NCBI GenBank assembly: GCA_024281315.1
Contig: JAJSAE010000036.1
Location: forward strand, 1-42,353
From: an archaeon
GTDB lineage: Archaea > Thermoplasmatota > Thermoplasmata > JAJSAE01
Direction of reading: 5' to 3'
Length of the DNA stretch: 42,353 nucleotides
Below are positions 6,979 to 41,865 of the stretch, piece by piece (the first letter of the stretch is position 1; every line of letters starts with the position of its first letter). A program made the translations under genes and the position numbers. The notes under the pieces are model-generated. The model made no database searches, was not told the DNA's origin, and was given only the letters and a program-made list of their open reading frames with translations.

Positions 6979-7026
6979 AGAGACTGCGGGATAGAGATGG
7001 GTTTTGGGAGTAAAAAGCCACTCATA

Positions 7027-18517: not shown

Positions 18518-19120
18518 CTATTTATTTAGAAGCTTTTCCAACTCATCTGGAACAATAATCTTAATGCCCGTTTTCTCTTTCTCATAGAATATTATCTGCC
18601 CTTCTATGCTCTCAGAGAGCATGTCTTTAGAGGAATAGGTTGTAGGTTTTATGCTGATAGGGATTCCCTTTATAAATCCATCAATGCCTTTGCTCTCCTC
18701 TTCTGGCGTTGAGACCCTATAATCTACACTGAGTTGCTTGGCAACCTTCTTTATAATCGCTTCTTGAAATTTAAGGCCAAGAAATGTTTTAACAATGACT
18801 AAATCTCTCACCCATTTGCGGACCATTTCCTCATCTATTTCGGTAATTGCTCCCTTGAGATTTTCAACCATGTATAGTATTTTTTTGGTTGCAATACCTA
18901 TTGCCTCTGGATGTTTTTCTATATACCATTTCTCCCACTCATCTAATGTCTTATCGGGAAATTTTTTTATCAATTCGCTCATCTGTCCCACAACTTTTGG
19001 GCGTGTTCGCTGTGCATTTTGATTGGCTAGGTTCAAAATCTGTGTTACATATTTCGGAAATTCTGGAGTTTCCACATCCATCAACATCCGAATCTCTTCG
19101 GTTTTAATCTTAATTTGCAT
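18518..19120 (-). CDS. Type II restriction endonuclease, MjaI-like (predicted CTAG)
   Basis: QILNLANQNAQRTRPKVVGQMSELIKKFPDKTLDEWEKWYIEKHPEAIG resembles the MjaI REase family; GIDGFIKGIPISIKP possible PD-(D/E)xK-type site; downstream of the MTase. Confidence 0.72.
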   Translation of the reverse strand: MQIKIKTEEIRMLMDVETPEFPKYVTQILNLANQNAQRTRPKVVGQMSELIKKFPDKTLDEWEKWYIEKHPEAIGIATKKILYMVENLKGAITEIDEEMVRKWVRDLVIVKTFLGLKFQEAIIKKVAKQLSVDYRVSTPEEESKGIDGFIKGIPISIKPTTYSSKDMLSESIEGQIIFYEKEKTGIKIIVPDELEKLLNK

Positions 19121-19132
19121 TTTATGGGCCCC

Positions 19133-20434
19133 CTATTGAACTTCCGTAACTGCCTCATCCCTAACAATTTTGATTAACTCTTCATATGTCTTATCTGCCT
19201 TCATAAATTTGTCCTTCATATCATATCTACTTTTTCTGTTTGCTGAAGCATAACCCTGTTTTATCAGGTAGTAGTTTATGAATATCTTATTTTTGAGATA
19301 CACATAAGCCTCTACGCAGTTTTCATCAGCAACATAATCTTTGTCGAAGCGGAGATAAACTTTCTTATTCAGTAAATAGTCATTGAGGTATTTTTTTGTT
19401 TTTTCCACATCTTTTATTATTAAGCCACGAAATTTAACCAGTAATCCGTTGTCTAGTTTAATTTCACCGTCATCGAAAACCTCATACACTCGATACAAAG
19501 GCTCTTTTTTGAATCTTAACTTATCCGGCTCAATTTTTGGGGCGGCATCATTAATTCTTGGTGTATAATCAATTTTCTCAATTTCAGGATGCTCAGTTCT
19601 CAGAATAATTTCAATTTCCCTTTCAAAAGAGATTAGATTAGTAGTTTTTATTTTCTTTTTAATAATGTCTAAAAAGCTCTCGTTAATTTCATAGCCAATA
19701 GTATTTCTGCCCAAGTCCAATGCAACTTTAGCTGTCGTCCCACTCCCTAAAAAAGGGTCCAAAACGGTCTCTCCAGCAAATGTAAACATTTTAATGATTC
19801 TTTTGGGCAACTCTTCAGGGAACATTGCTTCGTGTTCCATTTGTCTTGCACCTCCAAAATGCCAGTGGCCGTAAAAGTATTCTTTCCACTCCTCCTTGCT
19901 GAGTATAGATTGTTCTTTAATTTCTTTGGGGACTTTCTCACTTTTTCCGGGTTTTTTGAAGATTAATATATGTTCGTAGTCAATTTCAACCATACCATTT
20001 GGGGGATATGGATATGAACCCATTACATTGGCCCCACCAGTAGTATTCATTGTTGTTTTTTTCTGCCAGATTATAGACCCCATATAATCAAACCCAATAT
20101 TCTCACATTCTGCGATAATTTCTGCGTGCAGAGGAACTATCTTATACCTCCCGTAAATTATAGCTCTGGCAAATTGATCACCAATATTTATTACAAGCCT
20201 TCTCCCGGGTTTAAGAACTCGGTAACTTTCCCTCCAAACTCGGTATAAGTCTCTTAAATACTCGTGTAGGCTCTGTCCATATCCTATCTGTCCCTCTACA
20301 TTATAATTTTTTATCTGCCAGTATGGAGGGGAAGTAACTATTAGATGGACATGATTATCCTTTACTTCAAGCATTTTTCGGCTATCTCCTATTATTATCT
20401 TTGCTTGGCCGCTCATTTTCATCACTTCATACAT
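19133..20434 (-). CDS. Site-specific DNA methyltransferase (beta class, m4C-like) with C-terminal SNase-like domain
   Basis: Motif IV VTSPPYWQIKNY, motif I DPFLGSGTTAKVALDLGRNTIGYE; C-terminal KFRGLIIKDVEKTKKYLNDYLLNKKVYLRFDKDYVADENCVEAYVYLKNKIFINYYLIKQGYASANRKSRY resembles the staphylococcal nuclease fold. Confidence 0.88.
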   Translation of the reverse strand: MYEVMKMSGQAKIIIGDSRKMLEVKDNHVHLIVTSPPYWQIKNYNVEGQIGYGQSLHEYLRDLYRVWRESYRVLKPGRRLVINIGDQFARAIIYGRYKIVPLHAEIIAECENIGFDYMGSIIWQKKTTMNTTGGANVMGSYPYPPNGMVEIDYEHILIFKKPGKSEKVPKEIKEQSILSKEEWKEYFYGHWHFGGARQMEHEAMFPEELPKRIIKMFTFAGETVLDPFLGSGTTAKVALDLGRNTIGYEINESFLDIIKKKIKTTNLISFEREIEIILRTEHPEIEKIDYTPRINDAAPKIEPDKLRFKKEPLYRVYEVFDDGEIKLDNGLLVKFRGLIIKDVEKTKKYLNDYLLNKKVYLRFDKDYVADENCVEAYVYLKNKIFINYYLIKQGYASANRKSRYDMKDKFMKADKTYEELIKIVRDEAVTEVQ

Positions 20435-24347: not shown

Positions 24348-26231
24348 ATGAAGAGGTGGCCGGCGGTACTGATATTCTTTCTCCTTCTGATGCCCGTATT
24401 TTCCATGCCGGTGAGTGGAGATGGGTGCGCGATAACCGTTGTTGACGGCTACTCGACCCTCCGGGAGAACAGACAGCTGGCCTATGTTTCCGTCGGTGAG
24501 AACGAAGAGACCCTGAGCCTCTTTTTGAGCGTCGTATCTCTTGACCCGGGGCGGCCCCTGACCATAGTGGTTCCGCTGAAGACGCGGCCCGCAGCCCTTG
24601 ATGTGAGCAATACCTCTGAGTCCCAGTTCATGAAAGCATACAACTTTTATGACATTCGGAGAGAGGCCGTAAGGCAGCACGAAGGTCTAGCGCAGATTGG
24701 GAAGGATCTTTCTTCCGCCGCTTCTCCCATCGCCGGAGTTGAAATATTCGGCGCACCGATGCTTTTATATTATTCTATGATGGGCATGACCGCTTCTATG
24801 GGGGGCGATACATATGGGAATCCGTATGTCCACTACGGGCAGCCCGGCCTTTCCGTTGATGTATATTCCTTTAACTCTTCCGCTTCTCTCGGAGAGTTTT
24901 ATCAGTCCCTGAATGTTAGTGTGCCCCAGAATGTCGGTGATATCCTAACAAAGTATCAGGACTATTCTGTCGCCGTAATAAACACCGTGACAAAGCCCCC
25001 TATTAAAGAGAGCGATTTCGACAACCTCACAACGGCGGAACCAGGAGTAATGGCCGATTTCAAGGAATATGTAAGCACCCATTCCCAAATCAGCGTTTAC
25101 GGTTATTCTTATTTCGAAGACAAAGAACTCAATAGTATCATAGGCAGGATATCTGATTACGAACTCAGAAGTACATTCTATGACCTTATTTTTGCCACCT
25201 ACGGCATCGGACCGGCAAATGGCTTTCAGTTATTAGTGGACCTTCCCCTTGCCAATGGAAACGAGTGCTATTTCCCTCTCGGCACAAGCCCATCATGGAA
25301 TTCTATCACAAAAACAACCGTAATCTTCGACCTTTATGACGACAAGGAGGCGAATTTCAATGTTCCAGGGAAGCAGGTTTTCATGGACGGCCGGCACTAC
25401 TATATATGGGATTTCGAGAACGAAGCGCCAGATTACGACATAAACGGCATCCAGAAAGAAAAGGGCATGGGAACATCATGGGCCGAGTTCTCGGCCGGAA
25501 TGAACGGCTGGGCATACGACAATTCGAACAAACTTGCCGTCCTGATTATGCTGCTGTTTTTCACCCTGATATGGGCCTCGGCATTTATTCTTTATTCCCG
25601 GCGCGTGGGGGGCACTCTTTCCCCCGTAATCGCCGCAAAATTCCTTATGTTGGGCCTATTTCTGGCCCTCTTTTCCTTTCTGTTCTCCGTCTTCCTCATG
25701 CTCCCTCTTGCGGTCAGCCTTATGAGAAAGAATTCTGACTACTTCAAGCTCCCCCCTCCGGATGACGCACATAAGGTCTCTCCTTTACTTGACAATCTCG
25801 GATGGGTCTGGCAGCTGATTCTTCTTGTTCTTCTACTCTCTCCCATGATTTTCAGCCTATCTTACATTTTTGCCGTCACTTCTACCCGTTCCTCTATTCC
25901 AATATCATTTTTCATTGCCTGTGCCTATGCCTTTATGCTGTCACTTGTGTTCTTCCATGCCTATGTGAGATACCGCCTGCGCACCGGCGGGCCAGTGGTT
26001 AAGGAGGAGCCTGCGTCTCTTGAGGTCTCTTTCCTGAGACTTCAATCGTTTTTCGGTCTTGCTCTGGCAGTTGCCGTTTTGATCATCTTTACTATAATCC
26101 TCTTCCCCATCTTTCATGGTGAATTTGAGAATAACCTCTGCCTACTTTTGCAGGCGGCCTACATCTCCCTTGGCATTTCCGTTTCACTGGCCATTCTGAT
26201 TTATAGTAAAAGGGGACTTCTGACGCGCTGA
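24348..26231 (+). CDS. Exported/membrane protein: signal peptide, large extracytoplasmic domain, C-terminal multi-TM region
   Basis: N-terminal hydrophobic signal MKRWPAVLIFFLLLMPVFSMPVSG; several TM helices after about residue 395. Confidence 0.8.
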   Translation: MKRWPAVLIFFLLLMPVFSMPVSGDGCAITVVDGYSTLRENRQLAYVSVGENEETLSLFLSVVSLDPGRPLTIVVPLKTRPAALDVSNTSESQFMKAYNFYDIRREAVRQHEGLAQIGKDLSSAASPIAGVEIFGAPMLLYYSMMGMTASMGGDTYGNPYVHYGQPGLSVDVYSFNSSASLGEFYQSLNVSVPQNVGDILTKYQDYSVAVINTVTKPPIKESDFDNLTTAEPGVMADFKEYVSTHSQISVYGYSYFEDKELNSIIGRISDYELRSTFYDLIFATYGIGPANGFQLLVDLPLANGNECYFPLGTSPSWNSITKTTVIFDLYDDKEANFNVPGKQVFMDGRHYYIWDFENEAPDYDINGIQKEKGMGTSWAEFSAGMNGWAYDNSNKLAVLIMLLFFTLIWASAFILYSRRVGGTLSPVIAAKFLMLGLFLALFSFLFSVFLMLPLAVSLMRKNSDYFKLPPPDDAHKVSPLLDNLGWVWQLILLVLLLSPMIFSLSYIFAVTSTRSSIPISFFIACAYAFMLSLVFFHAYVRYRLRTGGPVVKEEPASLEVSFLRLQSFFGLALAVAVLIIFTIILFPIFHGEFENNLCLLLQAAYISLGISVSLAILIYSKRGLLTR

Positions 26232-26284
26232 CCTTTTTATTATCAATCCTGAGAACCTCTTCCGTTCTTATAAATACCTTCCAT

Positions 26285-26306: not shown

Positions 26307-26828
26307 ATGAAAGGTGTCATACTTCAGGCCTATATGGACTTTGTGAAGGAGAGATTCGGAGAGGAAGCATATCTCAGTCTTATCTCAAATAGGACAATAC
26401 TCGCAACACACAACTATGACGACGGGGAGTTTATGAAGGTTCTTAAGGAAACTGCTGAATTGACTATAATAGAAACCTCCTCCATCCTTCGGGAGTTCGG
26501 CATATACTTCGTGGATGTCTTTGCGGCTCGAAAGTATCGAATGTTTTACAGAAATAAGGACTTCCTCTCCTTTGTGCTGGATATAGATCGGATACACGAT
26601 ATAGTCACGAGGACCATGCCCGGCGCATCTCCCCCTCATTTTACCTATGAGAAGCTCACAGATGGAGATCTGATTGTCACATACCACTCGCCTCGAATGC
26701 TGGATGACCTTGTTAGAGGCCTGTTTGAAGGTGTGGCCCTGCACTTTGGGGCAAATGTGGACATTAAGCGCGAAAAGCTGGGGAGGAACTCCATAAAATA
26801 CCGCATTTCCCTGCTGCATTCCTCATGA
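26307..26828 (+). CDS. Stand-alone H-NOX (heme-NO/O2-binding) domain protein
   Basis: MKGVILQAYMDFVKERFG; IDRIHDIVTRTMPGASPPHF (proximal His); TYHSPRMLDDLVRGLFEGVALHFG (YxSxR). Confidence 0.85.
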   Translation: MKGVILQAYMDFVKERFGEEAYLSLISNRTILATHNYDDGEFMKVLKETAELTIIETSSILREFGIYFVDVFAARKYRMFYRNKDFLSFVLDIDRIHDIVTRTMPGASPPHFTYEKLTDGDLIVTYHSPRMLDDLVRGLFEGVALHFGANVDIKREKLGRNSIKYRISLLHSS

Positions 26829-26961: not shown

Positions 26962-26970
26962 CTTTAAATA
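26962..26970 (+). promoter_or_regulatory. TATA-like box for the nuo operon
   Basis: CTTTAAATA, followed by SD AAGGAGGC before ATG 27029. Confidence 0.5.
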
Positions 26971-27028
26971 ATCTTTCGGTATTGCACGGTTATGGGAATC
27001 TCCCACATATAATAAGGAGGCACAAAAT

Positions 27029-27382
27029 ATGGACCTTCTGAGCACCATAACTGCCGTTGTCCTTGATGGACTCCTCACGGGTATTTTAATACTTGTCATA
27101 GCCAGAATACTTGTGAAGTCCAGATATGAGGATATGAAGTATGAGTCTTACGAATGCGCGGACAGATCCGTGGGAAGCAACAGGCCGAGGCATGACTTTC
27201 ACTTCTACGCCTACGCCTTTATGTTTCTGGTCTTTGATGTGGGTGCCATATTCTTCGTTATATGGGCGGCTGCGCTGGACCTCTTCGAGTTCTTCGTTCC
27301 ACTCGCCCTTTTCACGGTTCTTCTGCTTCTCGGTCTTCTGTATTCCGTGGCCCACATAGGAGGGAGAGAAAATGGCGCGTGA
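27029..27382 (+). CDS. nuoA: Complex I-like subunit A
   Basis: KYESYECADRSVGSNRPRHDFHFYAYAFMFLVFDVGAIFFVIWA. Confidence 0.93.
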   Translation: MDLLSTITAVVLDGLLTGILILVIARILVKSRYEDMKYESYECADRSVGSNRPRHDFHFYAYAFMFLVFDVGAIFFVIWAAALDLFEFFVPLALFTVLLLLGLLYSVAHIGGRENGA

Positions 27383-27848
27383 AGTTCCGGAGGGGGTGAA
27401 CCTGAAGGAAATAATGAGTGTCCTGTCGTGGATCAAGGGCTCGTCTTTGTGGAATCTTCACTTCTGTTTCGGCTGCTGCTCCACCGAGATAATGGCCACC
27501 ATGATGCCGAGATTCGACATAGAGAGGTTCGGTTTCGTTCCCGCAGACACTCCGAGGCAGGCCGATGTTCTGGTGGCTAACGGCCCTATCTCCAGAAAGA
27601 TTGTTCCGAGAATTCAGAGGCTATGGGCCCAGATGCCCGACCCGAAGTATCTCATTGTCATAGGTGCCTGCCCAATGAGCGGAGGGCCGTATCAGGGCTC
27701 TTATAACATCGTTACCGACATAAGGGATGTTCTGCATGTGGAGCCGGCCGCATACATTCCCGGCTGCCCACCGAATCCGGAAGGGATACTGGAAGCGTTT
27801 ATAATGCTAAAAAACAGGATAAAGGAGGGTTCCTATGGCAAGTTTTGA
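27372..27848 (+). CDS. nuoB: Complex I-like subunit B
   Basis: HFCFGCCSTEIMATMMPRFDIERFG, IGACPMSGG, YIPGCPPNPE. Confidence 0.96.
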   Translation: MAREVPEGVNLKEIMSVLSWIKGSSLWNLHFCFGCCSTEIMATMMPRFDIERFGFVPADTPRQADVLVANGPISRKIVPRIQRLWAQMPDPKYLIVIGACPMSGGPYQGSYNIVTDIRDVLHVEPAAYIPGCPPNPEGILEAFIMLKNRIKEGSYGKF

Positions 27849-29385
27849 GAAAATCGCCGCCTCTCCGGAAACACTTGTGGATACGATGAGGGGGCTGAAG
27901 GCTTCCGGTTTCACTTTTCTAGAATTCATGTCCGCCGTTGACTATATTCCGAAAAATAGGGTGGAGCCCGGTGCGAACAGAATTGATGCGACATATATGC
28001 TCTGGAATCCCGCCGCCAACGAGCAGAAAATGGTCGTTGTTCCGCTCTCCCGCGATAATCCGTCCGTTCCCACGGTAATGCCCGTGTGGGAAGGGGCCAA
28101 CTGGCATGAAAGGGAGGCGCATGAACTCTTCGGAATCGACATAAAAGGCCACCCGAATCCGCGGCATCTTCTCCTTGCGGAGGGATGGAATGATACATAC
28201 CCCCTCAGAAAGGACTTCAATGTGGACGATGTGGAGATTGACTGGAATGTGCCCACCTCAAAATTGGCCGAAGGAAATCCCGAGAGGGTCTATCACTTTG
28301 CCGTCCAGCATCCCGGTGCTCACGGGCCCCAGGGGTTCGACCTTCTTTTGAACGGGAATACCATCGTAGACGCGGAAGCCAGAATCGGTTATGTCCATAG
28401 AACCCTTGAAAAGATAGGGGAGCAGAGAAATTACTACCAGAATATTCTCAATATGGAAAGAGGCTGCATCATGTGCGGCATGCCGTACATCGATGTGTGG
28501 GCCAGAGCCGTGGAAGAACTGCTTGGTGTTGAAGTACCGGAAAAAGCGAAGTATCTTCGACTCATTGCGGTGGAACTGAACAGACTCTCAAGCCATCTTC
28601 TCTGGATGGGGCCGCAGCAGGGCGGAGACTTTGCATACATGCCCGTAATGATGTGGGCCATTGGGGACAGAGAAAAAGTTCTGGACCTTCTCGAGGCTCT
28701 GACCGGCGGAAGGATTACATTTGCTTACATACGGCCCGGCGGAGTCAGATGGGACATCCCGGAGGGATTCCGGGATATGGCTGAGAAGAACCTCCGGTAT
28801 CTTGAATATAGGCTTCCTATGTACGAGGAAATGATGTTCAGGCAGCCTATTATTAAAGAGAGGCTTACAGGTCTTGGTAAACTGACCCCTGGGGAGGCCG
28901 TTGGGCTCGGCGTAAGTGGGCCGTCTTTAAGAGCAACGGGTGTTGCTCATGACACCAGAAAGGATGCACATATTCCGATTTATGAGGACCTCGGCTTCCG
29001 GATTGTCACCCAGACCGGCGGCGACGGGTGGGCCAGAGGTATGGTGCGGCTCGGCGAAATGAAGGAGAGCATACGCCTTATTCTTGACGCTCTTGACAGA
29101 CTTCCGCCCGGGAATTCGGAGGCGGACCTCTTTAATAGAAAGGCAATGCCGTGGATGAAGGTTCCGGTGGGCGAGACATACGCGGTTACTGAGAGCTGCA
29201 GAGGGCGCCTTGGCATACATCTGGTATCGGATGGAACCAATAAGGCGTACAGAACGAAGATAAGGGGGCCGTCTTTCTCCAACATGTATGCGGTGGAACA
29301 TATACTCAAGAAGGGCTCGTATCTATACGACATCCCCGCCCTCATAGGGAGCATGGACACTTGTCCTGCGGATATGGATCGGTGA
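27835..29385 (+). CDS. nuoCD: Fused complex I-like subunits C and D
   Basis: NuoC-like REAHELFGIDIKGHPNPRHLLLAEGW followed by NuoD-like HPGAHGPQGFDLLLNGNTIVDAEARIGYVHRTLEKIGEQRNYYQ. Confidence 0.95.
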   Translation: MASFEKIAASPETLVDTMRGLKASGFTFLEFMSAVDYIPKNRVEPGANRIDATYMLWNPAANEQKMVVVPLSRDNPSVPTVMPVWEGANWHEREAHELFGIDIKGHPNPRHLLLAEGWNDTYPLRKDFNVDDVEIDWNVPTSKLAEGNPERVYHFAVQHPGAHGPQGFDLLLNGNTIVDAEARIGYVHRTLEKIGEQRNYYQNILNMERGCIMCGMPYIDVWARAVEELLGVEVPEKAKYLRLIAVELNRLSSHLLWMGPQQGGDFAYMPVMMWAIGDREKVLDLLEALTGGRITFAYIRPGGVRWDIPEGFRDMAEKNLRYLEYRLPMYEEMMFRQPIIKERLTGLGKLTPGEAVGLGVSGPSLRATGVAHDTRKDAHIPIYEDLGFRIVTQTGGDGWARGMVRLGEMKESIRLILDALDRLPPGNSEADLFNRKAMPWMKVPVGETYAVTESCRGRLGIHLVSDGTNKAYRTKIRGPSFSNMYAVEHILKKGSYLYDIPALIGSMDTCPADMDR

Positions 29386-29389
29386 TAAT

Positions 29390-30397
29390 ATGCTGGCAGA
29401 TTCACTACTCTTCAAGCTGTTTGTGTTTCCGGGAACGGTTTTCTCCTTCATCATCGTACTGTTCCTGTTCTGGTGGTGGAGAAAGATAGGGGCTTCTATC
29501 CAGAGCAGATATGGGCCGAAACATGTGGGTCCCGCCGGAACCCTTCAGACCATAGCGGATGTGGTAAAACTGATAACAAAGGAGTCCATAGTACCGGAAC
29601 GGGCGAGCAGATGGTTCTGGTTCATGCCCGTATTTTCCTTTGTCCTATCCTTCCTCTTCCTGTCGCTCATACCCTTTAGCGATCACTGGGTAATAATAGA
29701 TTTTGACGCGAGTCTTATCATGCTATTTGCGGTCATGGCCATTGAACCGCTCTTCATATTCCTTGTCGGCTGGGTCTCATATAATAAATATGGGGTCGCA
29801 GGCGGGGAGAGGGCAGGAATTCAGATGCTTGCTTATGAGGTCTTCCTAGCCCTCACATTTGTTCCGGTCATAATGCTCTCTCACTCATGGAGCCTTGTGG
29901 GAATTGTCTACGGTCAAGGGGTTTCCCCGACATGGGCGAGTCCGGTCCTTCACACATTCGTTGACAGAGGAGTATGGTTTGGCCTTGTTCAGCCTCTTGC
30001 CCTAGTTCTCAGCATCATTGCGGTGATGATGGCCACGGAGAAGAAGCCGTTTAACCTTCCTCACGCCGAACCGGAGGTTATTTACGGCTCAAGCACCGAG
30101 TATGGGGGGCCGTTCTACGCCCTTCAGATGCTCAGTCAGTTTCTTATGGGATTCCTTGGTGCGGGACTTATAACGACGCTCTATCTCGGGGGCTGGGCGC
30201 TTCCGTCTGTGCCGCCGGCCCTGGGCTTTGTCCTGAAAACACTGGTGGTGGGAACGATTATCATATGGTTGGAGCATTCGCTTCCTGCAATGAGGGTCCC
30301 GCATCTCCTTGAGGTGGCGTGGAGAAAACTCGTTCCGCTTGCGTTCCTGAATATTTTCATAACACTTATCATAATGGAGGTGCTCGGATGGGCCTGA
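29390..30397 (+). CDS. nuoH: Complex I-like subunit H
   Basis: RKIGASIQSRYGPKHVGPAGTLQTIADVVKLITKE, PFNLPHAEPEVIYGSSTEYGG. Confidence 0.95.
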   Translation: MLADSLLFKLFVFPGTVFSFIIVLFLFWWWRKIGASIQSRYGPKHVGPAGTLQTIADVVKLITKESIVPERASRWFWFMPVFSFVLSFLFLSLIPFSDHWVIIDFDASLIMLFAVMAIEPLFIFLVGWVSYNKYGVAGGERAGIQMLAYEVFLALTFVPVIMLSHSWSLVGIVYGQGVSPTWASPVLHTFVDRGVWFGLVQPLALVLSIIAVMMATEKKPFNLPHAEPEVIYGSSTEYGGPFYALQMLSQFLMGFLGAGLITTLYLGGWALPSVPPALGFVLKTLVVGTIIIWLEHSLPAMRVPHLLEVAWRKLVPLAFLNIFITLIIMEVLGWA

Positions 30398-30795
30398 TTA
30401 AACCGCTGTTGTACACCCTCAGAGAGCTGTTCAAAAGACCGATAACCGTGAAATATCCCTACGAAAAGAGAGACATATCTCCCAGGGTCAGAAACATACA
30501 TACGCTGGATCGGGATACCTGCCAGCACTGCGGCATATGTGCGAGAATGTGCCCCAACAATGTGCTTAAAATGGTCGATGGCTATCCCACGGCGGATTAT
30601 AGGTACTGCAGTTTCTGCGGAATATGCCTGGATGCCTGCCCCACCGGCTCCATTCAGATGATTCACACTCAGGAGCACAATATTGTAAGGGCCTATCAGA
30701 AGGACCTTTATATGGAACTCCTGAGTCCAGACGGTACGATTTACAACCCAGATGCCCCCCATTCCGAGGATAACGAAACGGGAGGTGTATTGTAA
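30388..30795 (+). CDS. nuoI: Complex I-like subunit I (2x[4Fe-4S])
   Basis: CQHCGICARMCPNNVL and CSFCGICLDACPTGSI. Confidence 0.94.
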   Translation: MGLIKPLLYTLRELFKRPITVKYPYEKRDISPRVRNIHTLDRDTCQHCGICARMCPNNVLKMVDGYPTADYRYCSFCGICLDACPTGSIQMIHTQEHNIVRAYQKDLYMELLSPDGTIYNPDAPHSEDNETGGVL

Positions 30796-31271
30796 TGGCT
30801 CTGAATATCGAATGGTTTATGGATTTTCTGGCCTTTGTTATGGTCATTGCCGGCGCAATAGGAATGATGGAATCCAAAAGGATGGTAAGAAGCATTATGT
30901 ACTTCCTCCTGCTGGTTCTGGGACTTGCCCTGTACCTCTTCGTGGAGCATGTCTATTACCTCTCCCTCTACCTTATTGTTGTGTACAGCGGTGTGGCCAT
31001 GATATTCATACTCTTCATGGGGATGTTTCTGGGAGATAAAGAGATGAAAGAGGGGGGTGCCGCTTCAAGCCTCGCCGGCTGGGCATTCGTTGGGATACTC
31101 TTCTTCCTGTTATCAGGTTTCTCCGTTGCGTTCAACTTCCCTGTGCTTACGATGCATGACATAGCAGGAACGATATTCGGGCAGTACGGCTTTGTCCTGC
31201 TCCTTCTTGGACTTCTGATATTCTCGGCGCTTGCCAGCGTCTTTTCCATGATAGAGGAGGTGGAAGAATGA
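30795..31271 (+). CDS. nuoJ: Complex I-like subunit J
   Basis: YYLSLYLIVVYSGVAMIFILFMGMFLG; position in operon. Confidence 0.88.
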   Translation: MALNIEWFMDFLAFVMVIAGAIGMMESKRMVRSIMYFLLLVLGLALYLFVEHVYYLSLYLIVVYSGVAMIFILFMGMFLGDKEMKEGGAASSLAGWAFVGILFFLLSGFSVAFNFPVLTMHDIAGTIFGQYGFVLLLLGLLIFSALASVFSMIEEVEE

Positions 31272-31531
31272 TGGAATACATCCCGTTCTTTTTGCTCGCC
31301 GCCGGGCTTTACGGCCTCACTCGCAGGAATGCCCTGAAAGTCCTTCTTTCGGCGGAGATGGTATCCCTCGGCGCTATAATTCTGGTTGCCGGTAGTCAGT
31401 ATCAGGCTCTGGCCCTGTTCCTGCTGGGTGCAAGTGCGATAGAGGCCATGGTTGGTTTCACCGTACTTCTCTGGCTCTATAAGACCTTTGAAACCGTGGA
31501 CCTTGATGTTATAAGGGGGTTGAGAGGATGA
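31268..31531 (+). CDS. nuoK: Complex I-like subunit K
   Basis: AAGLYGLTRRNALKVLLSAEMVSLGAIIL; position in operon. Confidence 0.9.
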   Translation: MMEYIPFFLLAAGLYGLTRRNALKVLLSAEMVSLGAIILVAGSQYQALALFLLGASAIEAMVGFTVLLWLYKTFETVDLDVIRGLRG

Positions 31532-32973
31532 TACTTCTGCTTTCCATTCTGATACCCGTGTTGGTCGGCCTCGGAATCTATCTGTTCGGGAAAGGCATGT
31601 CTAACAGGCTGCTTGGTGCGATAAGTGCCGTATCGCTGCTGATACCGCTTGCGCTGCTCATGCTGGTTTACAGTACGGATACACTGGAGACATATGCATG
31701 GATTACTCCGCTGGGGATTAACTTCTCCCTCTATGCCGACGGGCTCAGCTGGCCCATTGCCCTAGCAATACTTCTACTCGGAACTCTTGCCAGTATATAC
31801 AGCATTGGCTACATGAAGGGAGAGCACGCCCTCCATTCCTACTACGCCAACCTGATATTCTTTGTGGCTGCGATGTACGGCCTCGTCCTTGCAGCCGACC
31901 TCATAGAGTTCTATGTGTTCTGGGAACTGATGCTGATACCGAGTTATCTGCTCATATCCTTCTGGGGGCATGAAAATGCCAAGGGGGCGGGCTATAAGTA
32001 TATTATTTACACGCACTTCGGTGCTATATTCCTGCTGATATCAATATTTATGCTCTGGCTCTATTCGGGGACTACCAACATGTTCGATATCACAGCAATG
32101 CTTCACGCTCCTGCATGGGCCTTCCAGTTAATCATTGTATTCATGCTGCTGGGCTTTCTGATAAAGATGGGTGTATTTCCGCTCCATACATGGCTCCCGG
32201 ATGCTCATGCCAATGCTCCGACCCCAATCAGCGTGCTGTTGAGCGGAGTCATGGTTTCCACCGGCGGTTACGCCCTCATGAGGTTTGCCGGGTTCATGCT
32301 TCCACAGCTGCAGCAGTATGCTCCGATAATGATGCTCCTTGGCACTGTTTCCATAATCTACGGCGGACTCATGGCTCTGATGCAGACCGATGTTAAGAGG
32401 ATGTTCGCTTACAGTTCGGTCAGCCAGATGGGATATATCATGTTTGGTGCCGGAACCCTCACATACTTCGGTTTCCTCGGCGCCAACTACCATATCTTTG
32501 CCCACGCTCTCGGAAAAGGTCTGTTATTCATGGTGGCCGGTGTGATGATAACTCAGATGGGGACCCGCGATATGCGGAAGATAAGCGGCCTGGCCAAGAA
32601 GATGCCGGTGGTGGCCACATCCGCCCTGATTGCGGTGTTCAGCCTTGCCGGTACCCCGCCAATGGCCGGTTTCATATCGGAGTGGACCCTGTTTGCCGGA
32701 GGAATCCAGAGCGGGAATTTCCTGCTCACTGCTGTAACGCTCGTCCTTTCCCTGATAACCGCTTCCTATATGCTGTGGTTCATAAGGAGGGTCTTTTTTG
32801 GCCCCATGTCGGAGGCGGTGGAAAATGCAAAGGTGCCTCCGGCAAGTATGAGATATGCAATCGCAACTCTAGCGGTGCTCTCCATACTCTTCGGCCTCTT
32901 CCCCGGCTTCCTGCTGGATGTACTGGTTCCGGCGGTAATGCATATCCTTGGAATTGTGGGGGGGGTGTTTTAG
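31528..32973 (+). CDS. nuoM: Complex I-like subunit M (stop TAG)
   Basis: Proton-antiporter-like subunit; FPLHTWLPDAHANAPTPISVLLSGVMVSTGGYALMRF. Confidence 0.93.
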   Translation: MILLLSILIPVLVGLGIYLFGKGMSNRLLGAISAVSLLIPLALLMLVYSTDTLETYAWITPLGINFSLYADGLSWPIALAILLLGTLASIYSIGYMKGEHALHSYYANLIFFVAAMYGLVLAADLIEFYVFWELMLIPSYLLISFWGHENAKGAGYKYIIYTHFGAIFLLISIFMLWLYSGTTNMFDITAMLHAPAWAFQLIIVFMLLGFLIKMGVFPLHTWLPDAHANAPTPISVLLSGVMVSTGGYALMRFAGFMLPQLQQYAPIMMLLGTVSIIYGGLMALMQTDVKRMFAYSSVSQMGYIMFGAGTLTYFGFLGANYHIFAHALGKGLLFMVAGVMITQMGTRDMRKISGLAKKMPVVATSALIAVFSLAGTPPMAGFISEWTLFAGGIQSGNFLLTAVTLVLSLITASYMLWFIRRVFFGPMSEAVENAKVPPASMRYAIATLAVLSILFGLFPGFLLDVLVPAVMHILGIVGGVF

Positions 32974-34845
32974 ATGGCAGTCAATACGAATGAAATGCTC
33001 GTCTATCTCGCAATCGGCATTCCGATTCTGGCTGCCGTGATGAGCCTTGCACTGAAATCGAATAGGGCAAGGAATATCTTCGCCGTGATTATCGGGTTGA
33101 TAACGGCAGCGGATGTTCTCGCCCTTTATCCGCGCCTCGCAAGTGCAGAGCATGGAATAACGGTTTCTGTGCCGTGGCTCGAATCACTGGGGATTACCAC
33201 TAATCTTTATGTGGACCAGATAAGCTTCATATTCGCCTTTGTGGCTACATTCCTCGGCTTCCTGATACTGCTCTTCAGTGTGGAATACATGTCCCATGAA
33301 AAGAGTACTCGCAGGTACTACTTCCTCATGATGCTGTTTATCGGCGGCATGGTCGGTGTTGTCTTCTCCGACTCGCTCCTGCTGATGTATGTGTTCTGGG
33401 AGATTATCGGTATATGCAGTTATTCTCTCATAGGATACTGGTACGAGGACAGGGATAACGCAGAGGCAGGAATGAAATCGTTCATAGTCACAAGGAGTGG
33501 TGATGTGGGCCTCCTTCTCGGCATACTTGTCATATTCTTCTATACCCACACATTCAGCATTCAGTCCCTCATAGCGCAGGGAAACCACTGGGCCGTCCTG
33601 ATTCCGGCCGCTCTGCTGGCCTATGTCCCGTTCATGCTTCTTACGGGTGCGATAGGCAAGTCCGCTCTGTTTCCGTTCCATGTATGGCTTCCGGATGCCA
33701 TGGCAGGTCCGACCACCGTTTCCGCACTCATACACGCGGCCACACTGGTCAATGCCGGGGTTTACATGGTGGCCAGAACCATGCCATTGTTTGTTTCCAT
33801 AAACGCCGCAGACTACTTTACCGCTGTTGCAATAATCGGTGCCTTCACAGCATTCATGGCCGCCACCATGGCTCTTTCGGCCATAGAACTCAAAAAGGTT
33901 CTGGCGTATTCGACCCTCAGTCAGATCGGTTATATGTTCATGGCCCTCGGTGCGGCGGGGCTAATGGCGAATCACGATGTGGGCCTCTTTGCGGCCATGT
34001 CCCATCTCATGTCTCATGCCTTATTCAAGGCTCTGCTTTTCCTTGATGCCGGTGTCATTCTCCACATATTCGAGACCAAGTACATGACGAAGATGGGCGG
34101 TATGAGATGGGCGGTTCCCGTGGTATTCTGGACATTCATTGTGGGCGCCCTCTCGCTCTCGGGTGTTCCACCCTTTTCCGGTTTCTTCAGTAAAGAGAGT
34201 ATTCTGGAAATAATGCTGCAAGCCGATCTTGGCAATCTGGGACTCGCTCTTTATATCGTTGGCACGGGAACAGCAATACTTACGGTGTTCTATATTTTCA
34301 GGGCAATCGGGATGACTTTCTACGGACCGGCGAGAGAAAAGGTAAAGGTCTCGTATTTTCTTTCCGTTCCTCTGATTATTCTTGCTGCGGTTTCTCTTCT
34401 GATATGCCTTCTTTGCCCTGTTTTCTGGAGTTTCTTCGGCTTTGAAGGAGCCCGCCCCCATCCCGGCATGACATCAGTCTATATCAGTCTTGGCATCTTT
34501 GCGGTTGGCGGCCTCCCTGCATTCATGATATACATCGCCGGAGACTGGAAGATTAACACGGGGAGAGGGGTGGCCGGTGTTCTGAATAAATTCCTGTTTA
34601 ATAGATGGTACATCAACAAGGCCTACTATGTCATCATCGTCGGCGGGATTCTCGGGCTCGCCAGGGGACTTCAGTTCTCGCTGGAGTGGGGGCTGAACGG
34701 ATTTAACCGCGGCATAAACTACTTCTCCAATCTTGCGGCGGAGGGCATGTCGATGGCGCAGACCGGAAGGATTTCCACCTACCTCTACTTTGCAATCGGC
34801 GGCCTTATGATATTCCTGATATTCTTCAGGATGGGGGTGTTCTAA
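32974..34845 (+). CDS. nuoL: Complex I-like subunit L
   Basis: ALFPFHVWLPDAMAGPTTVSALIHAATLVNAGVYMVARTMPLF; long C-terminal region. Confidence 0.94.
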   Translation: MAVNTNEMLVYLAIGIPILAAVMSLALKSNRARNIFAVIIGLITAADVLALYPRLASAEHGITVSVPWLESLGITTNLYVDQISFIFAFVATFLGFLILLFSVEYMSHEKSTRRYYFLMMLFIGGMVGVVFSDSLLLMYVFWEIIGICSYSLIGYWYEDRDNAEAGMKSFIVTRSGDVGLLLGILVIFFYTHTFSIQSLIAQGNHWAVLIPAALLAYVPFMLLTGAIGKSALFPFHVWLPDAMAGPTTVSALIHAATLVNAGVYMVARTMPLFVSINAADYFTAVAIIGAFTAFMAATMALSAIELKKVLAYSTLSQIGYMFMALGAAGLMANHDVGLFAAMSHLMSHALFKALLFLDAGVILHIFETKYMTKMGGMRWAVPVVFWTFIVGALSLSGVPPFSGFFSKESILEIMLQADLGNLGLALYIVGTGTAILTVFYIFRAIGMTFYGPAREKVKVSYFLSVPLIILAAVSLLICLLCPVFWSFFGFEGARPHPGMTSVYISLGIFAVGGLPAFMIYIAGDWKINTGRGVAGVLNKFLFNRWYINKAYYVIIVGGILGLARGLQFSLEWGLNGFNRGINYFSNLAAEGMSMAQTGRISTYLYFAIGGLMIFLIFFRMGVF

Positions 34846-36269
34846 TGAACTGTGCAGTATATTCGCTTGCGCTTATCGCAGTACTGGCTGTGGTTATAAC
34901 AATGTTCAACAGGGTAAAGAACGAGATGGGAAAGGCGGAGTTCGGCCTGATAATAGGCGGCATTCTTGCCGCTCTCGGCCTTGCGATATTCTCTTTCAAT
35001 CAGCCGGCAGGACTGTTTTCGGCCTCATATCATGGGATTTTCATACAAATGTATGTCACCCCTTTGGCCATATTCTTCGAGATACTCGTTCTCACTGCAG
35101 TCCTGATGCTTATTCTGGCCTCATGGGATTACACCAGAAAGACAAGGTACTACGGCCTCTTCTTGCTCAGCACAATGGGCGTTCTCCTGCTCCCATTTTC
35201 AAGGGACATTCTGACGCTCTATTTCGCATGGGAACTCATGACTGTGCCGACCTATGCTCTGGTTCTATTCAGCCCGTCGAAGAAGTCGGTTGAAGGGGGC
35301 GTGAAATACCTCATATTCGGCATCCTGTCCTCTGCTCTCATGATATTCGGCATGATGCTTCTCATAGTTACTAGCGGCCATACGGACCTTGCGGGTATCG
35401 GTCAGTATCTGGGCCTTCCAACTAACAGAACCGACCTCACATTCCTTACGGGCGTCCTTTTGGTGGTGGCCATGGGAATTAAAATTGGTCTTGTACCGTT
35501 CCACATGTGGATACCGGATTCCTATCAGGGAGCCCCCAGGCTGGTTGCCGGCTATCTCAGTGCAGTTACCAAGAAGGCCGGAATAATCGCCCTGATCATG
35601 GTGGTGTTCGTAGCAGCGGTCTTTTCGCAGAGTCAGTACGCCTCGGTCTTCCTATTCCTCTCCGTAATAACCATGTTCTGGGGGAATGTGGCGGCGCTTA
35701 AGCAGAAGAATGTGGTCCGCATGCTTGCCTACTCGAGCATCGCACAGATGGGTTACATACTGATAGGGTTCTCGGTGAACATACAGTTCGGCCTTGAGGC
35801 GGCCCTCTACCATGCGCTCACTCATGCGGTTATGGACGCCCTCGCCTTCATTGCAGTCTTTGCCATATTCCACAGTACCGGAGCATACATGCTGGATGAC
35901 TATAGAGGGCTTGCCAGAAGAGTTCCGAAGACGGCGCTTGCACTATCCCTGGGCCTTTTCGCCCTTGCGGGAATGCCCCCGCTCGCAGGATTCACCAGCA
36001 AACTGTTCCTGTTCAAGGCGGGCCTTGACGGCGGCCTGTGGTGGCTCTCGCTCCTCGGGCTCGGCTTCTCCGTATTCTCTCTCGCATACTACCTGAAGCC
36101 CGTGATGGCCATGTACGGACACGAGGAGGGTGAAGTTACAGACGATGATGTGTATGTGCCTCCCGCAACGGGAATTGCTATGGGAATCGGCGTCATACTT
36201 CTGTTTCTGCTCGGCCTATACCCCAATTTCTTCATGGAACTGATAGCGAGAGCCGTTGCTCTCTTGTGA
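34845..36269 (+). CDS. nuoN: Complex I-like subunit N
   Basis: VPFHMWIPDSYQGAPRLVAGYLSAVTKKAGIIAL; last gene of operon. Confidence 0.92.
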   Translation: MNCAVYSLALIAVLAVVITMFNRVKNEMGKAEFGLIIGGILAALGLAIFSFNQPAGLFSASYHGIFIQMYVTPLAIFFEILVLTAVLMLILASWDYTRKTRYYGLFLLSTMGVLLLPFSRDILTLYFAWELMTVPTYALVLFSPSKKSVEGGVKYLIFGILSSALMIFGMMLLIVTSGHTDLAGIGQYLGLPTNRTDLTFLTGVLLVVAMGIKIGLVPFHMWIPDSYQGAPRLVAGYLSAVTKKAGIIALIMVVFVAAVFSQSQYASVFLFLSVITMFWGNVAALKQKNVVRMLAYSSIAQMGYILIGFSVNIQFGLEAALYHALTHAVMDALAFIAVFAIFHSTGAYMLDDYRGLARRVPKTALALSLGLFALAGMPPLAGFTSKLFLFKAGLDGGLWWLSLLGLGFSVFSLAYYLKPVMAMYGHEEGEVTDDDVYVPPATGIAMGIGVILLFLLGLYPNFFMELIARAVALL

Positions 36270-36660
36270 ATTAAAAACCTTTCACTCCTTTCTTTTATGG
36301 CAGAAGACGGAGCTTTTTTCTAATATGCTATTGTCTTCCCACCCCGACTGAAGAACAGTGTGCGCCTCAAACTTTTTTATCCTCGACCATATTCCGTTCC
36401 CTTAGCAGTTTTACAACTTGAAGTTATCTCTGCCATATTACGGGATTTTTCTGCAAAACCGCGCATGTTTAAAGAGAGCAATCTCTATTAATAACACCCT
36501 ATCGGAAAGGCCCCAAATCGTGTTACGCCATATCATGCGGAGAGAAAAACCGATGCCGCTTTTTCACCGTTGTTGACAAACCACGCATCAAAAGTGCCGT
36601 GCCAACATGTGACTTCGGAAAAGTATTTATGCCTGAAAAACCATCACCATATTGATAATC

Positions 36661-38544
36661 ATGTCGGCCGAAATACCTGTCCTGCTTGCAGTCGCCTTTC
36701 CCGTACTTATGGGGATTTTGTGTTACGCACTGCGTAACCGGCGCAGCATTGCCGCACTATCGTTCATATCGTCTGCGGTGCTGATAGCCACATCCCTCGT
36801 TCTATTCTGGATGGTACGGGACAATGGAGGCGGAATACGCCTGGATATGAATGAATTTGCCGGAATACCGGTGAGCGAACTGATTATGGTGCTGGACTCG
36901 TTTTTGATGTTCTATTTCCTTTATATAGGAATAAAACTCAAAAATCTTCCTACCATTATCTTTGCGGTTCTTCAAATGATCCCGCTCTTCTGGTTCGAGA
37001 GCCAGCATCAGGGGGCAGTAACACCCTCATTCTATATCGACTCTCTGGCGGTAATAATGGTGCTCATAGTCTCCATTATAGGCTCGTTAATAGTTATCTA
37101 CGCTATCAAGTACATGGAGCATGACAAAAAACAGGCGAGATTCTTCTTCTTCATGCTGCTCTTCCTCGGAGCCATGAACGGCGCTGTTCTTTCAAATAAC
37201 CTGCTCTGGCTCTTCTTCTTCTGGGAAGTAACCACTCTGTGCTGTTACGCCCTCATAAGACACGAGGAAACAGAAGAAGCGATAAAATCGGCAACACGGG
37301 CCCTTGTGGTAACCCTTGGCGGCGGCGTTGCCTTCGCATTGGCGATTCCACTGATATTCGAGTACTTTGGCTCAGTATCCTTCATTGACATTCTTGCGAT
37401 AAGCCCTGCGCTCGGTCTTGCATTTATACCAGTGGCACTCATTGCTCTGGCGGCCTTCACAAAGTCGGCTCAGATACCGTTCCAGAGCTGGCTTCTCGGT
37501 GCGATGGTTGCTCCGACACCGGTTTCGGCTCTTCTTCACTCTGCGACCATGGTAAATCTCGGAGTGTATGTTCTCATCCGCAGCGCACCCGCTATCGGAC
37601 TGGCCCCTTGGCTCTCATTCGTGATAGCGGTTGTAGGCGGCTTCACCTTCTTTGTAACGGCTCTGATGGCGGTTTCTCAGGTAACGATCAAGAGAGTGCT
37701 GGCATATTCGACAATCGGTAATCTCGGCCTGATAGTCATGTGTGTCGGAATAAACACCCCGCTATCGCTCTCTGCGGCCATCCTTCTCCTCTTCTTCCAT
37801 GCCATGTCCAAGGCCCTGCTCTTCCTTAGTGCGGGGGTGGTGGACCATGAGGGACACACGAAGAAGATAACGGGAATGGAGGGAATGATACGCTCCATAC
37901 CGGTCCTTGCGGTCACAGTGGTCGCGGCGGTAATGACCATGATGATGCTCCCCTTCGGAATGTTTATCGGGAAGTGGGTTGCACTGGAGGTAAGCACCAC
38001 AAGGCCCGAGCTTCTCCTGCTGACTGGTTTTGTCATATTCGGCAGCGTTCTGACCAGCCTCTATTATACAAAGTGGCTCGGTCTTGTGCTATCGGCTCCG
38101 GAAGAGCCGGAGCACCCCCCGAAACCGCACCCCCTGTCGAAACTCTACACTATACCCATGTTTACACTGCTCGCTGGTGCGATATTCTTCAGCGTCTTTA
38201 TGGGGCCGGTCATAAGCGAACTGATAGGGCCTGCAGTTGCTCCCTATTATGGACTTACGCCCATGACATCCGATAACATAACCTTCTTCACGCCGATGGG
38301 CTGGGTTCCGTCACTTCTGATATTTGTCCTTATCGTGGTGGCCATATTCCTTCCGCTGAAGATGTTCAAATCCATTCCGAAAGAGGCCGTGAAACCGGTT
38401 TATCGCTGCGGTGAGGACTTCGAACAGTTGCGCCTAAAGGGTTTCTTCTACGAAAGAGAGGTTCCCGACGACAGGATAACCAGATACGCAAATCCCATTG
38501 CCGTAATTCTCCTAGTCATCATGCTGGGGGTGATTTTCATATGA
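36661..38544 (+). CDS. echA: Ech-type hydrogenase subunit A (NuoL-like antiporter module)
   Basis: IPFQSWLLGAMVAPTPVSALLHSATMVNLGVYVLIRSAPAI; first gene of ech operon; ATG 36661 preferred to TTG 36652. Confidence 0.88.
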   Translation: MSAEIPVLLAVAFPVLMGILCYALRNRRSIAALSFISSAVLIATSLVLFWMVRDNGGGIRLDMNEFAGIPVSELIMVLDSFLMFYFLYIGIKLKNLPTIIFAVLQMIPLFWFESQHQGAVTPSFYIDSLAVIMVLIVSIIGSLIVIYAIKYMEHDKKQARFFFFMLLFLGAMNGAVLSNNLLWLFFFWEVTTLCCYALIRHEETEEAIKSATRALVVTLGGGVAFALAIPLIFEYFGSVSFIDILAISPALGLAFIPVALIALAAFTKSAQIPFQSWLLGAMVAPTPVSALLHSATMVNLGVYVLIRSAPAIGLAPWLSFVIAVVGGFTFFVTALMAVSQVTIKRVLAYSTIGNLGLIVMCVGINTPLSLSAAILLLFFHAMSKALLFLSAGVVDHEGHTKKITGMEGMIRSIPVLAVTVVAAVMTMMMLPFGMFIGKWVALEVSTTRPELLLLTGFVIFGSVLTSLYYTKWLGLVLSAPEEPEHPPKPHPLSKLYTIPMFTLLAGAIFFSVFMGPVISELIGPAVAPYYGLTPMTSDNITFFTPMGWVPSLLIFVLIVVAIFLPLKMFKSIPKEAVKPVYRCGEDFEQLRLKGFFYEREVPDDRITRYANPIAVILLVIMLGVIFI

Positions 38545-39443
38545 ATACTATTGATATAGCCATAAGGATCCTGCTCTTCGTACTGGCACCGGCATTCGGC
38601 TGTCTGTTCTTCGGGATAGACAGAAAACTAACTGCGAGGATGCAGAACAGAGTGGGACCTCCGCTTCTTCAGCCCTGGTACGATTTCAAGAAGTTAATGG
38701 GCAAGACCGAGGAGATAGTGAATCACATACATCTGGTATTCGCCTTTGCCTATGTGGCTTTCATAATGCTGGCACTTGGAATATTCCTGATGGACGGAGA
38801 CCTTATCGTAATATGCTTCTCTCTTGGAGCTTCTCAGGTATTCCTTGCCCTCGGGGCATTCAGTGTGCGCTCCCCTTACAGCCATGTCGGGGCTCACAGG
38901 CACCTTCTTCAGATGGTTGCCGTGGAGCCCCTGCTGATTCTGGCCGCCGTAACGATAAAGTTGCAGACGGGCAGTTTCGTGCTGAGCGATATCTATGCCC
39001 GGAGCACATACCCGTTCTTCGGAATCAACACGATCCTTCTGCTCTCGCTGCCTGTCGCCTTCTTTATAGTAATTCTGGCGACCATAGTCGACACTCAAAA
39101 ATCTCCCTTCGACATCTCGACGGCCCACAGCGAGATAGTTTCCGGGACCTTCGTCGAGTACTCCGGCCCCTATCTGGCAATAACGAAACTGGGGCACTGG
39201 TTCGAACTCTCCCTGCTCTTTGCGTTCGTGAGCATATTCTTCAGCTCTGATGTCCTTTGGATATCAATAGCCGGGAAACTCACACTGGACTTTGCGGTCT
39301 TCCTGCTCATCCTAGTGATAGACAACTCCACCGCGCGTCTGACCATAGATCGACTGGTGAAGTTCAGTGTCAGAATAGGTCTCCCTCTGATAATCATAAA
39401 CATAGTTTTAATTGTGATAAGCAGCATGGGGGTGATTGCATGA
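38541..39443 (+). CDS. echB: Ech-type hydrogenase subunit B (NuoH-like)
   Basis: RKLTARMQNRVGPPLLQPWYDFKKLMGK, KSPFDISTAHSEIVSGTFVEYSGPYLA. Confidence 0.92.
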   Translation: MNTIDIAIRILLFVLAPAFGCLFFGIDRKLTARMQNRVGPPLLQPWYDFKKLMGKTEEIVNHIHLVFAFAYVAFIMLALGIFLMDGDLIVICFSLGASQVFLALGAFSVRSPYSHVGAHRHLLQMVAVEPLLILAAVTIKLQTGSFVLSDIYARSTYPFFGINTILLLSLPVAFFIVILATIVDTQKSPFDISTAHSEIVSGTFVEYSGPYLAITKLGHWFELSLLFAFVSIFFSSDVLWISIAGKLTLDFAVFLLILVIDNSTARLTIDRLVKFSVRIGLPLIIINIVLIVISSMGVIA

Positions 39444-39892
39444 ACGGTACGGAGAAATCGAGGCTCAAGTCTCCGTGGATAACCCACATCAATACTGGAG
39501 GCTGCAACGGATGCGATATAGAGATACTTGCCTGCCTTACACCGAAATACGACATAGAGCGCTTCGGCATCCTCAATAAGGGGAATCCGAAGCATACCGA
39601 TGTCCTGCTGGTGACCGGACCGGTAACGAAGAAATACATACATGTCCTGAAGAATCTTTACGACCAGACCCCGGGTCCCAAAGTTGTTATAGCTGTCGGA
39701 ACATGCGCCTGCTCCGGTGGTGTCTTTAAAGACCTCTATAATGTTGAAGGCGGCGTGGATCAGGTTATACCGGTGGATGTCTATATCCCTGGCTGTGCCG
39801 TCAAGCCGGAAGCCATCATAGACGGAGTGGTTCTGGCCCTTGAAAAGCTCAAGAAACTTCAGGAAGGAACCTGGAAGGAGGTGGGAGAATGA
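39440..39892 (+). CDS. echC: Ech-type hydrogenase small subunit
   Basis: NTGGCNGCDIEILACLTPKYDIERFG, GTCACSGG, VYIPGCAVKPEAI. Confidence 0.93.
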   Translation: MNGTEKSRLKSPWITHINTGGCNGCDIEILACLTPKYDIERFGILNKGNPKHTDVLLVTGPVTKKYIHVLKNLYDQTPGPKVVIAVGTCACSGGVFKDLYNVEGGVDQVIPVDVYIPGCAVKPEAIIDGVVLALEKLKKLQEGTWKEVGE

Positions 39893-40227
39893 ATGTGATA
39901 CCGATAACATGGGAAAATTTCGATGCGGAAATGGATAAGAAAGCAGAGGAGAAGGCAAGGCTCATCTGCATCTCTGGGCTGGATACGGGGGAAAGGACAA
40001 TGGAGGTGAACTACCACTTCGTGATAAACAACGGAGATGTCGTAACCCTCAGACTCACCAGAGGTATAAAGGAGGAATTCAAGAGTGTAGTCGATAAATT
40101 CCCCGCTGCCGTGCTGGTAGAGAAGGAACTGGTGGAGATGTACGGCATAGAGATGAAAGGCGTGGAGGGCCATCTTCTTCTGGCAGCGGATGCGGATATA
40201 TATACACCACAGAGGCGGTCACCATGA
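39889..40227 (+). CDS. echD: Ech-type hydrogenase subunit D (NuoC-like)
   Basis: Short protein between echC and echE; KELVEMYGIEMKGVEGHLLL resembles the NuoC family. Confidence 0.82.
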   Translation: MNVIPITWENFDAEMDKKAEEKARLICISGLDTGERTMEVNYHFVINNGDVVTLRLTRGIKEEFKSVVDKFPAAVLVEKELVEMYGIEMKGVEGHLLLAADADIYTPQRRSP

Positions 40228-41300
40228 AAGTAGTTAATATTATTCCGTTCGGCCCGCAGCACCCGGTGCTTCCGGAGCCCATTCATCTGGACATGCAGAC
40301 CGAGGGCGAGATTGTCACGGATGTCAAGGTTGTTGTAGGATATGTCCACAGGGGCATTGAGAAGGGGCTGGAGAATGATTACGAGAAGAATATGTTTCTG
40401 GCGGAGAAGATATGCGGCATATGTTCCGGTGTTCACACATCCACTTATTCGATGGTAATAGAAAGTATCATGGGTGTAGAAGTTCCGCAGAGGGCGGAAC
40501 TTATCCGGGCCATCATTCTGGAGCTGGAGCGCCTGCACAGCCACCTGCTAATAATCGGCCTTGTTGGAGATGCTATCGGGTACGAGAACTTCTTCATGCA
40601 GACATGGAGGGACAGAGAGATTGTGATGAATCTCCTAGGCACTCTTACCGGAAACCGCGTTCATTACGGAATAAACAAGGTGGGCGGTGTGAGAAGAGAC
40701 CTGACAGATGAAAGAATCGCGCTCATAAAAAAAGCCATGGCGGAACTGCGGCCCAAAATAGACGATATAGCCGATATAGTGTATCACGATTACACTCTCA
40801 AAAAGAGGGGACGCGGCGTTGGCGTGCTGAAAAAGAGCGATGCCATCGCTCTTGGTATAGTTGGCCCCAACGCAAGAGCTAGCGGAGTGAACTACGACAT
40901 TCGCTCCACGGGGTACGGTGCATACAAGGACCTGCACTTCAAGCCTATACTGGGCGAAGCGGGAGACTGCCATGAAAGAACATCGGTCCGTGTTAAGGAA
41001 CTCTACCAATCAATGGATTTGATAGAAGAAGCCCTTTCCCTGCTGAAGCCGGGTGAGATAGCCGCAAGGCCAAAAGGATTCCCGAAAGGCGAGGCGGTGG
41101 CCCGTCACGAAGCACCGAGAGGAGAACTCTTTTATTATGCTCGCGGTGTGGGGAAAAAGGAGATGTATCGCGTTAAAGTAAGAACGCCGACCTATGCGAA
41201 CATACCGGGGATTCCTCCGCTTGTGAAGGGAATGCAGATTGCGGATGTGCCGTACATAGTGGTCTCTCTTGACCCGTGTATATCCTGTACGGAGCGTTAG
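40224..41300 (+). CDS. echE: Ech-type [NiFe] hydrogenase large subunit
   Basis: Both Ni-ligand motifs present: EKICGICSGVHTSTYS and DPCISCTER at the C terminus. Confidence 0.95.
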   Translation: MKVVNIIPFGPQHPVLPEPIHLDMQTEGEIVTDVKVVVGYVHRGIEKGLENDYEKNMFLAEKICGICSGVHTSTYSMVIESIMGVEVPQRAELIRAIILELERLHSHLLIIGLVGDAIGYENFFMQTWRDREIVMNLLGTLTGNRVHYGINKVGGVRRDLTDERIALIKKAMAELRPKIDDIADIVYHDYTLKKRGRGVGVLKKSDAIALGIVGPNARASGVNYDIRSTGYGAYKDLHFKPILGEAGDCHERTSVRVKELYQSMDLIEEALSLLKPGEIAARPKGFPKGEAVARHEAPRGELFYYARGVGKKEMYRVKVRTPTYANIPGIPPLVKGMQIADVPYIVVSLDPCISCTER

Positions 41301-41311
41301 GGGGTGAAAAA

Positions 41312-41821
41312 ATGGGAATGCTAAAAAATACCCTGAAGAACCTCTTCTCGAAACCCGCAACCATCCTGTATCCAGTAGAGCCAATCCCTCCTCTTCCCGA
41401 CTTCAGAGGTCAGTACACCATGGACCACTCCAAATGCATATACTGTCATCTGTGTGAAAAGAGGTGTCCGGTGGGGGCCATAAAGATAGACAAGGAGAAG
41501 AAGCAGAACGAGATTTACCTCTCTCTCTGCATCAACTGCGGTGTCTGTGTGGAGGTCTGCCCCAAGGACTGTATCACTCTGGAAGAGGTATATACCCCTC
41601 CGTCTTATACACGAGAGGTGCGTGTATTCCACACGGAGCCGACGGAGCACCAGTTAAAGGTTCAGGAACTGCCTCATTACGCCGAAGAAGGGAAATTGTG
41701 CATCACCAAGACGGAACTGGAAGCTATGAAAGGAGAGCTTACGGAACATCAATATCGCGTTGCCGTCCTGCCCTGTTACAGACGAGACAAGAATGACAGC
41801 AAGGAAAAGAAAGAGGCCTGA
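41312..41821 (+). CDS. echF: Ech-type hydrogenase polyferredoxin subunit
   Basis: CIYCHLCEKRCPVGAI and CINCGVCVEVCPKDCI; ATG 41312 with SD GGGGTG. Confidence 0.92.
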   Translation: MGMLKNTLKNLFSKPATILYPVEPIPPLPDFRGQYTMDHSKCIYCHLCEKRCPVGAIKIDKEKKQNEIYLSLCINCGVCVEVCPKDCITLEEVYTPPSYTREVRVFHTEPTEHQLKVQELPHYAEEGKLCITKTELEAMKGELTEHQYRVAVLPCYRRDKNDSKEKKEA

Positions 41822-41865
41822 AGCATATATTATATAGAAGAAGCACATCACAGGCTGGTGACATA

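Follow-up and report, generated by a model that had tools for sequence, protein, structure and literature searches.

NO signalling through H-NOX proteins is described for bacteria and animals. The 42,353-nucleotide stretch of DNA analyzed here (the window) raises the question of what such a protein senses in an uncultured archaeon of the Thermoplasmata, and through which partner its signal could be passed on. The gene concerned is an exact ORF with an ATG start (26307-26828, + strand) encoding 173 aa, which the first-pass annotation had read as a stand-alone archaeal H-NOX heme sensor without the distal tyrosine. The archaeal setting held, and contamination of the contig was rejected, since archaeal RNA polymerase subunits are encoded on it. 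The codon-position GC of the gene was like that of its neighbors.

Searches and modeling bore out the stand-alone H-NOX assignment. The suggested HMM search gave a full-profile match to Pfam HNOB (PF07700; E 3.7e-33, 115.2 bits with a curated cut-off of 25.5 bits, profile positions 1-162 of 163), and phmmer against the PDB returned H-NOX/sGC chains only, with Shewanella 4u99 as the best match (7.6e-11). A PDB search with a 27-sequence profile again retrieved only H-NOX/sGC chains, with E values down to 6.7e-54. The AF2 model, calculated from the window protein and 26 homologues, had a pLDDT of 91.3 and a pTM of 0.86, and its best Foldseek matches in the PDB were all H-NOX proteins (Caldanaerobacter, Shewanella, K. 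algicida and Nostoc; TM 0.75-0.82). The stop codon at 26826-26828 leaves no C-terminal MCP signaling domain, and an H-NOX-MCP fusion receptor was therefore rejected; the protein has neither an output domain nor a DNA-binding domain. The V4R and MetOD1 domains of signaling proteins are distant HNOB kin with a conserved Cys cluster (PMC5847659). The 173 residues include no cysteine and the modeled fold is that of H-NOX, so that membership in V4R/MetOD1 was rejected and the V4R-like non-heme fold considered in the first-pass annotation was not what the model revealed. The window protein is a distant yet regular member of the already known H-NOX family, and an ordinary one by the standards of that family.

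The heme-contact residues could be placed by alignment with the Caldanaerobacter protein, in which H102, P114-P115, Y131/S133/R135 and Y140 correspond to H97, P109-P110, Y126/S128/R130 and L135 of the window protein. This agrees with the earlier reading of the proximal His, of the YxSxR motif (YHSPR, Y126-H-S128-P-R130) and of Leu at the position of the distal Tyr140, which is absent. H97, P109-P110, Y126, S128 and R130 were invariant across 27 aligned sequences. H-NOX proteins without Tyr140 bind NO, and CO too; from this family knowledge and the absence of Tyr140, NO (and CO) sensing by the window protein can reasonably be inferred. Among 40 H-NOX proteins compared, Tyr140 was restricted to seven rows of the MCP-type clade, the same rows carried Trp9, and the remaining rows had neither. 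Position 9, which is Trp in the MCP types and L/V/I/T/F elsewhere, is Tyr in the window protein alone, an assignment that is firm because the alignment is gap-free from M1 to residue 9, and Phe68 occupies the position of Caldanaerobacter Asn74; the first-pass annotation mentioned neither residue. Tyr140 of the Caldanaerobacter protein is hydrogen-bonded to Trp9 and Asn74 (PMC7356049), which places position 9 on the distal side, and Tyr9 may, judging from the sequence, put a new hydroxyl into the distal pocket. The earlier statement that H-NOX proteins without the distal Tyr generally bind NO and CO but not O2 agrees with the missing Tyr140, yet the exclusion of O2 is less certain for the window protein because of this possible hydroxyl.

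The window protein was at most 36% identical to any relative and formed a long branch (1.79 changes per column) outside both the MCP-type and the stand-alone anaerobe clades, and tests of its grouping did not reject ANME-1 plus UBA9212, all stand-alone types, or family f49 (p 0.10-0.12). A first search of genome contigs with the window protein as single query gave no match, and no relative was found on viral contigs. When 400 genomes of the class were surveyed at the HNOB profile cut-off, seven proteins exceeded it, and the window protein alone combined every heme motif with an archaeal context; the other matches comprised one probable contamination, one false match to aIF2-alpha, one degenerate HNOB-like protein and three divergent HNOB proteins from one genus. 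The probable contamination, of bacterial origin, is a Clostridial-type H-NOX-MCP fusion in a Thermoplasmata MAG (L006/L056/L082); its contig is just 3.3 kb long and also carries a Tex-like gene. Within the class, weak HNOB matches were set aside as false where the frame encoded an aIF2-alpha-like protein (L003, L010, L012, L013 and L021) or were judged V4R-like (L004, L005 and L011). Genus g72 of the same class has divergent HNOB proteins (L007, L008, L009 and L023), two of them in one genome; at least three retain the His, but the Arg of YxSxR has been lost.

A scan of the phylum gave matches in 17 of 390 at E 1e-6, chiefly in family f49 and additionally in Thermoplasmata UBA9212. In the latter (L066:1863-3496) genes for desulfoferrodoxin and rubrerythrin come after the H-NOX gene, which gives it an oxidative-stress neighborhood. 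In seven of eight f49 loci (L040-L046) the gene after H-NOX, which has the same orientation, encodes a conserved protein about 200 aa long (419 aa in L041) that combines a charged coiled coil with two likely membrane helices and a helical segment at the C-terminus. The three of these adjacent proteins tested had no Pfam match, and the protein is a candidate for a new H-NOX partner.

A scan of named genomes yielded 30 H-NOX loci, many from anaerobic bacteria and eight from the methane-oxidizing ANME-1 archaea (Methanophagales, some labeled Methanosarcinales). Chemotaxis genes lay beside H-NOX in all seven ANME-1 contigs with sequence on both sides. Four of these had cheA directly 3' of H-NOX (L063, L068, L069 and L070), as in the one-strand order cheW, receiver, cheX, cheB, H-NOX and cheA of L063:3347-8215 (cheA at 6605-8215), while L060, L064 and L065 had upstream che genes only. 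The presence in L070 of ATPase genes reading as archaeal A-type disfavors contamination of this contig. H-NOX as a putative NO input of an archaeal chemotaxis operon in ANME-1 has apparently not been described before; among the open-access papers searched, none was devoted to archaeal H-NOX.

The host assembly (1.75 Mb, 107 contigs, 91% complete) encodes no HNOB protein other than the window H-NOX. A profile search for HATPase_c and receiver domains found no kinase or receiver genes on the contig itself, and the genome-wide search for partner kinases proposed earlier located CheA and two further histidine kinases elsewhere. Kinases and receivers were concentrated on contigs 16 and 91, of which one carries CheA (L098:5811-7865), CheC/X, CheD, an MCP and a receiver, and the other CheR, a dCache-HAMP kinase, a PAS kinase (L099:8951-10417) and receivers. 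Host CheA was 38-41% identical to ANME-1 CheA over the core. The genome also encodes a hybrid-cluster protein, a candidate NO reductase; bacterial members of this protein group act as NO reductases, whereas the archaeal role is unsettled (PMC10210160). Neither a heme-copper oxidase nor cytochrome bd was found in the host genome, as expected for an anaerobe. AhbD (for which MoaA was the best match), an AhbA/B-type decarboxylase and ferrochelatase were not found in the 91%-complete genome either, so that heme synthesis is probably absent or encoded in the missing part, and heme is probably acquired by uptake rather than made by the host. How the sensor of an anaerobe without recognized heme synthesis is loaded with heme is a question posed by this finding.

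The surroundings of the gene bear on the earlier proposal that the sensor might control the adjacent respiratory operon. The upstream neighbor (24348-26231, +) encodes a membrane protein of 627 aa whose N-terminus resembles a signal peptide and which matches no Pfam family. Downstream, ORF reading indicated a complex-I-like operon (27029-36269, +; NuoA, B, a CD fusion, H, I, J, K and proton-antiporter-type subunits) in which no NuoE, F or G was recognized, followed by an energy-converting, group-4-like [NiFe] hydrogenase cluster (36652-42351, +) that ends with hypB and includes a product with CGIC and CxxC motifs (40224-41300). Elsewhere in the window a low-GC stretch (18518-20434, -; 37%, the usual value being about 51%) has the look of a restriction-modification island that was acquired: it holds a gene resembling DNA methyltransferases, with an SNase-like tail, and another gene next to it. 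It is conceivable, though unlikely, that the H-NOX serves energy metabolism as a sensor of CO or NO, protecting or tuning the adjacent complex-I-like enzyme as well as the group-4 hydrogenase encoded 10 kb downstream. The H-NOX gene precedes nuoA by 200 bp on the same strand, H-NOX proteins without Tyr140 take CO in addition to NO, and in Moorella stamsii (L071) an H-NOX gene adjoins hyp genes inside a group-4-like hydrogenase cluster whose large subunit is 40% identical to that of the window. The Moorella case is a lone one, however, and linkage to nuo or hydrogenase genes was absent in the archaeal relatives examined, the ANME-1 neighbors being chemotaxis genes. The 200-bp gap, the missing DNA-binding domain and separate TATA-like boxes, called by consensus only, likewise leave operon control unsupported: TTATAAATA (26266-26276, +) is located some 40 bp upstream of the H-NOX start codon, for which a short leader is expected, and TTTAAATAAT (26962-26972, +) precedes nuoA 3' of the H-NOX stop. 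The perfect 6-bp inverted repeat CGCATCTCGATGCG, which lies between the first of these boxes and the H-NOX gene, was rejected as an operator because on a simple expectation many such repeats occur in 42 kb, and a sigma-70 promoter scan is uninformative for archaeal DNA.

The residues of the pocket and the heme supply speak to two further readings. That the protein binds or responds to O2, with Tyr9 replacing Tyr140 as hydrogen-bond donor, would fit the gap-free placement of this residue, unique among the 40 proteins compared, at a position lining the distal side (Trp9 in Caldanaerobacter, PMC7356049), but Phe68 in place of Asn74 and Leu at position 140 speak against this reading, which is quite improbable. 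Slightly more doubtful still is the idea that heme is not the cofactor in vivo, and that the protein senses free heme or another ligand or is a decaying copy; the lack of recognized heme-synthesis genes and the long branch are consistent with it, whereas every heme-contact motif has been kept at 36% identity to the nearest relative, which argues for selection on heme binding.

The interpretation we favor, as fairly probable, is that the protein lets an anaerobe sense NO (perhaps CO) and works in trans, on CheA or on a cytosolic kinase. As a soluble heme-based gas sensor, the H-NOX would bind NO (and CO) at an Fe(II) heme held by H97, NO binding would weaken the His-iron bond and shift the N-terminal lobe, and the H-NOX would then modulate a kinase distinct from itself, the likeliest candidates being host CheA and the host histidine kinases, by which the cell would respond to NO. 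A partner in trans is suggested by the absent output domain and by the precedent of Vibrio, in which H-NOX, once it has bound NO, inhibits a kinase that is a protein of its own (PMC6759604). Three observations favor CheA: the gene order in ANME-1, the fusion of H-NOX to MCPs in Clostridia-like bacteria and the che set of the host; with kinase and receiver genes absent from the contig, and hence no linkage there, CheA would be the partner by analogy only. More tentatively, and with less than even probability, archaea might feed NO into CheA through a diffusible stand-alone H-NOX, encoded among che genes in ANME-1 and unlinked in the present Thermoplasmata lineage, which has a che set and in which the distal pocket would be rebuilt with Tyr9 for Tyr140. 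The occurrence of H-NOX in several archaeal lineages together with the repeated cheA link in ANME-1 offers a concrete and testable route for archaeal NO sensing, among others in organisms controlling methane release.

Compared with known systems, the window H-NOX is of moderate interest for its archaeal setting, the che linkage in its relatives, its odd distal residue and its heme supply. It shares the fold, the proximal His, GA(S/T)PP and YxSxR with the Caldanaerobacter (Thermoanaerobacter) H-NOX (PDB 1u4h), which in contrast is MCP-fused and carries Trp9/Asn74/Tyr140 where the stand-alone window protein has Tyr9/Phe68/Leu135. The Shewanella oneidensis H-NOX (PDB 4u99), the best PDB match by sequence, is likewise stand-alone and without Tyr140 but only 26% identical, with Leu at position 9. 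Bacterial stand-alone H-NOX genes often adjoin the gene for their kinase or cyclase (PMC9500659), whereas the window gene has no such neighbor. Also close are the stand-alone H-NOX proteins of ANME-1 and diverse anaerobic bacteria (L058-L080 and L086), which are also about 173 aa long without an output domain, have Leu/Phe/Ile at position 140 and are 28-36% identical to the window protein; they differ from it by Leu (or V/I/T) instead of Tyr at position 9 and, in ANME-1, by being encoded among chemotaxis genes.
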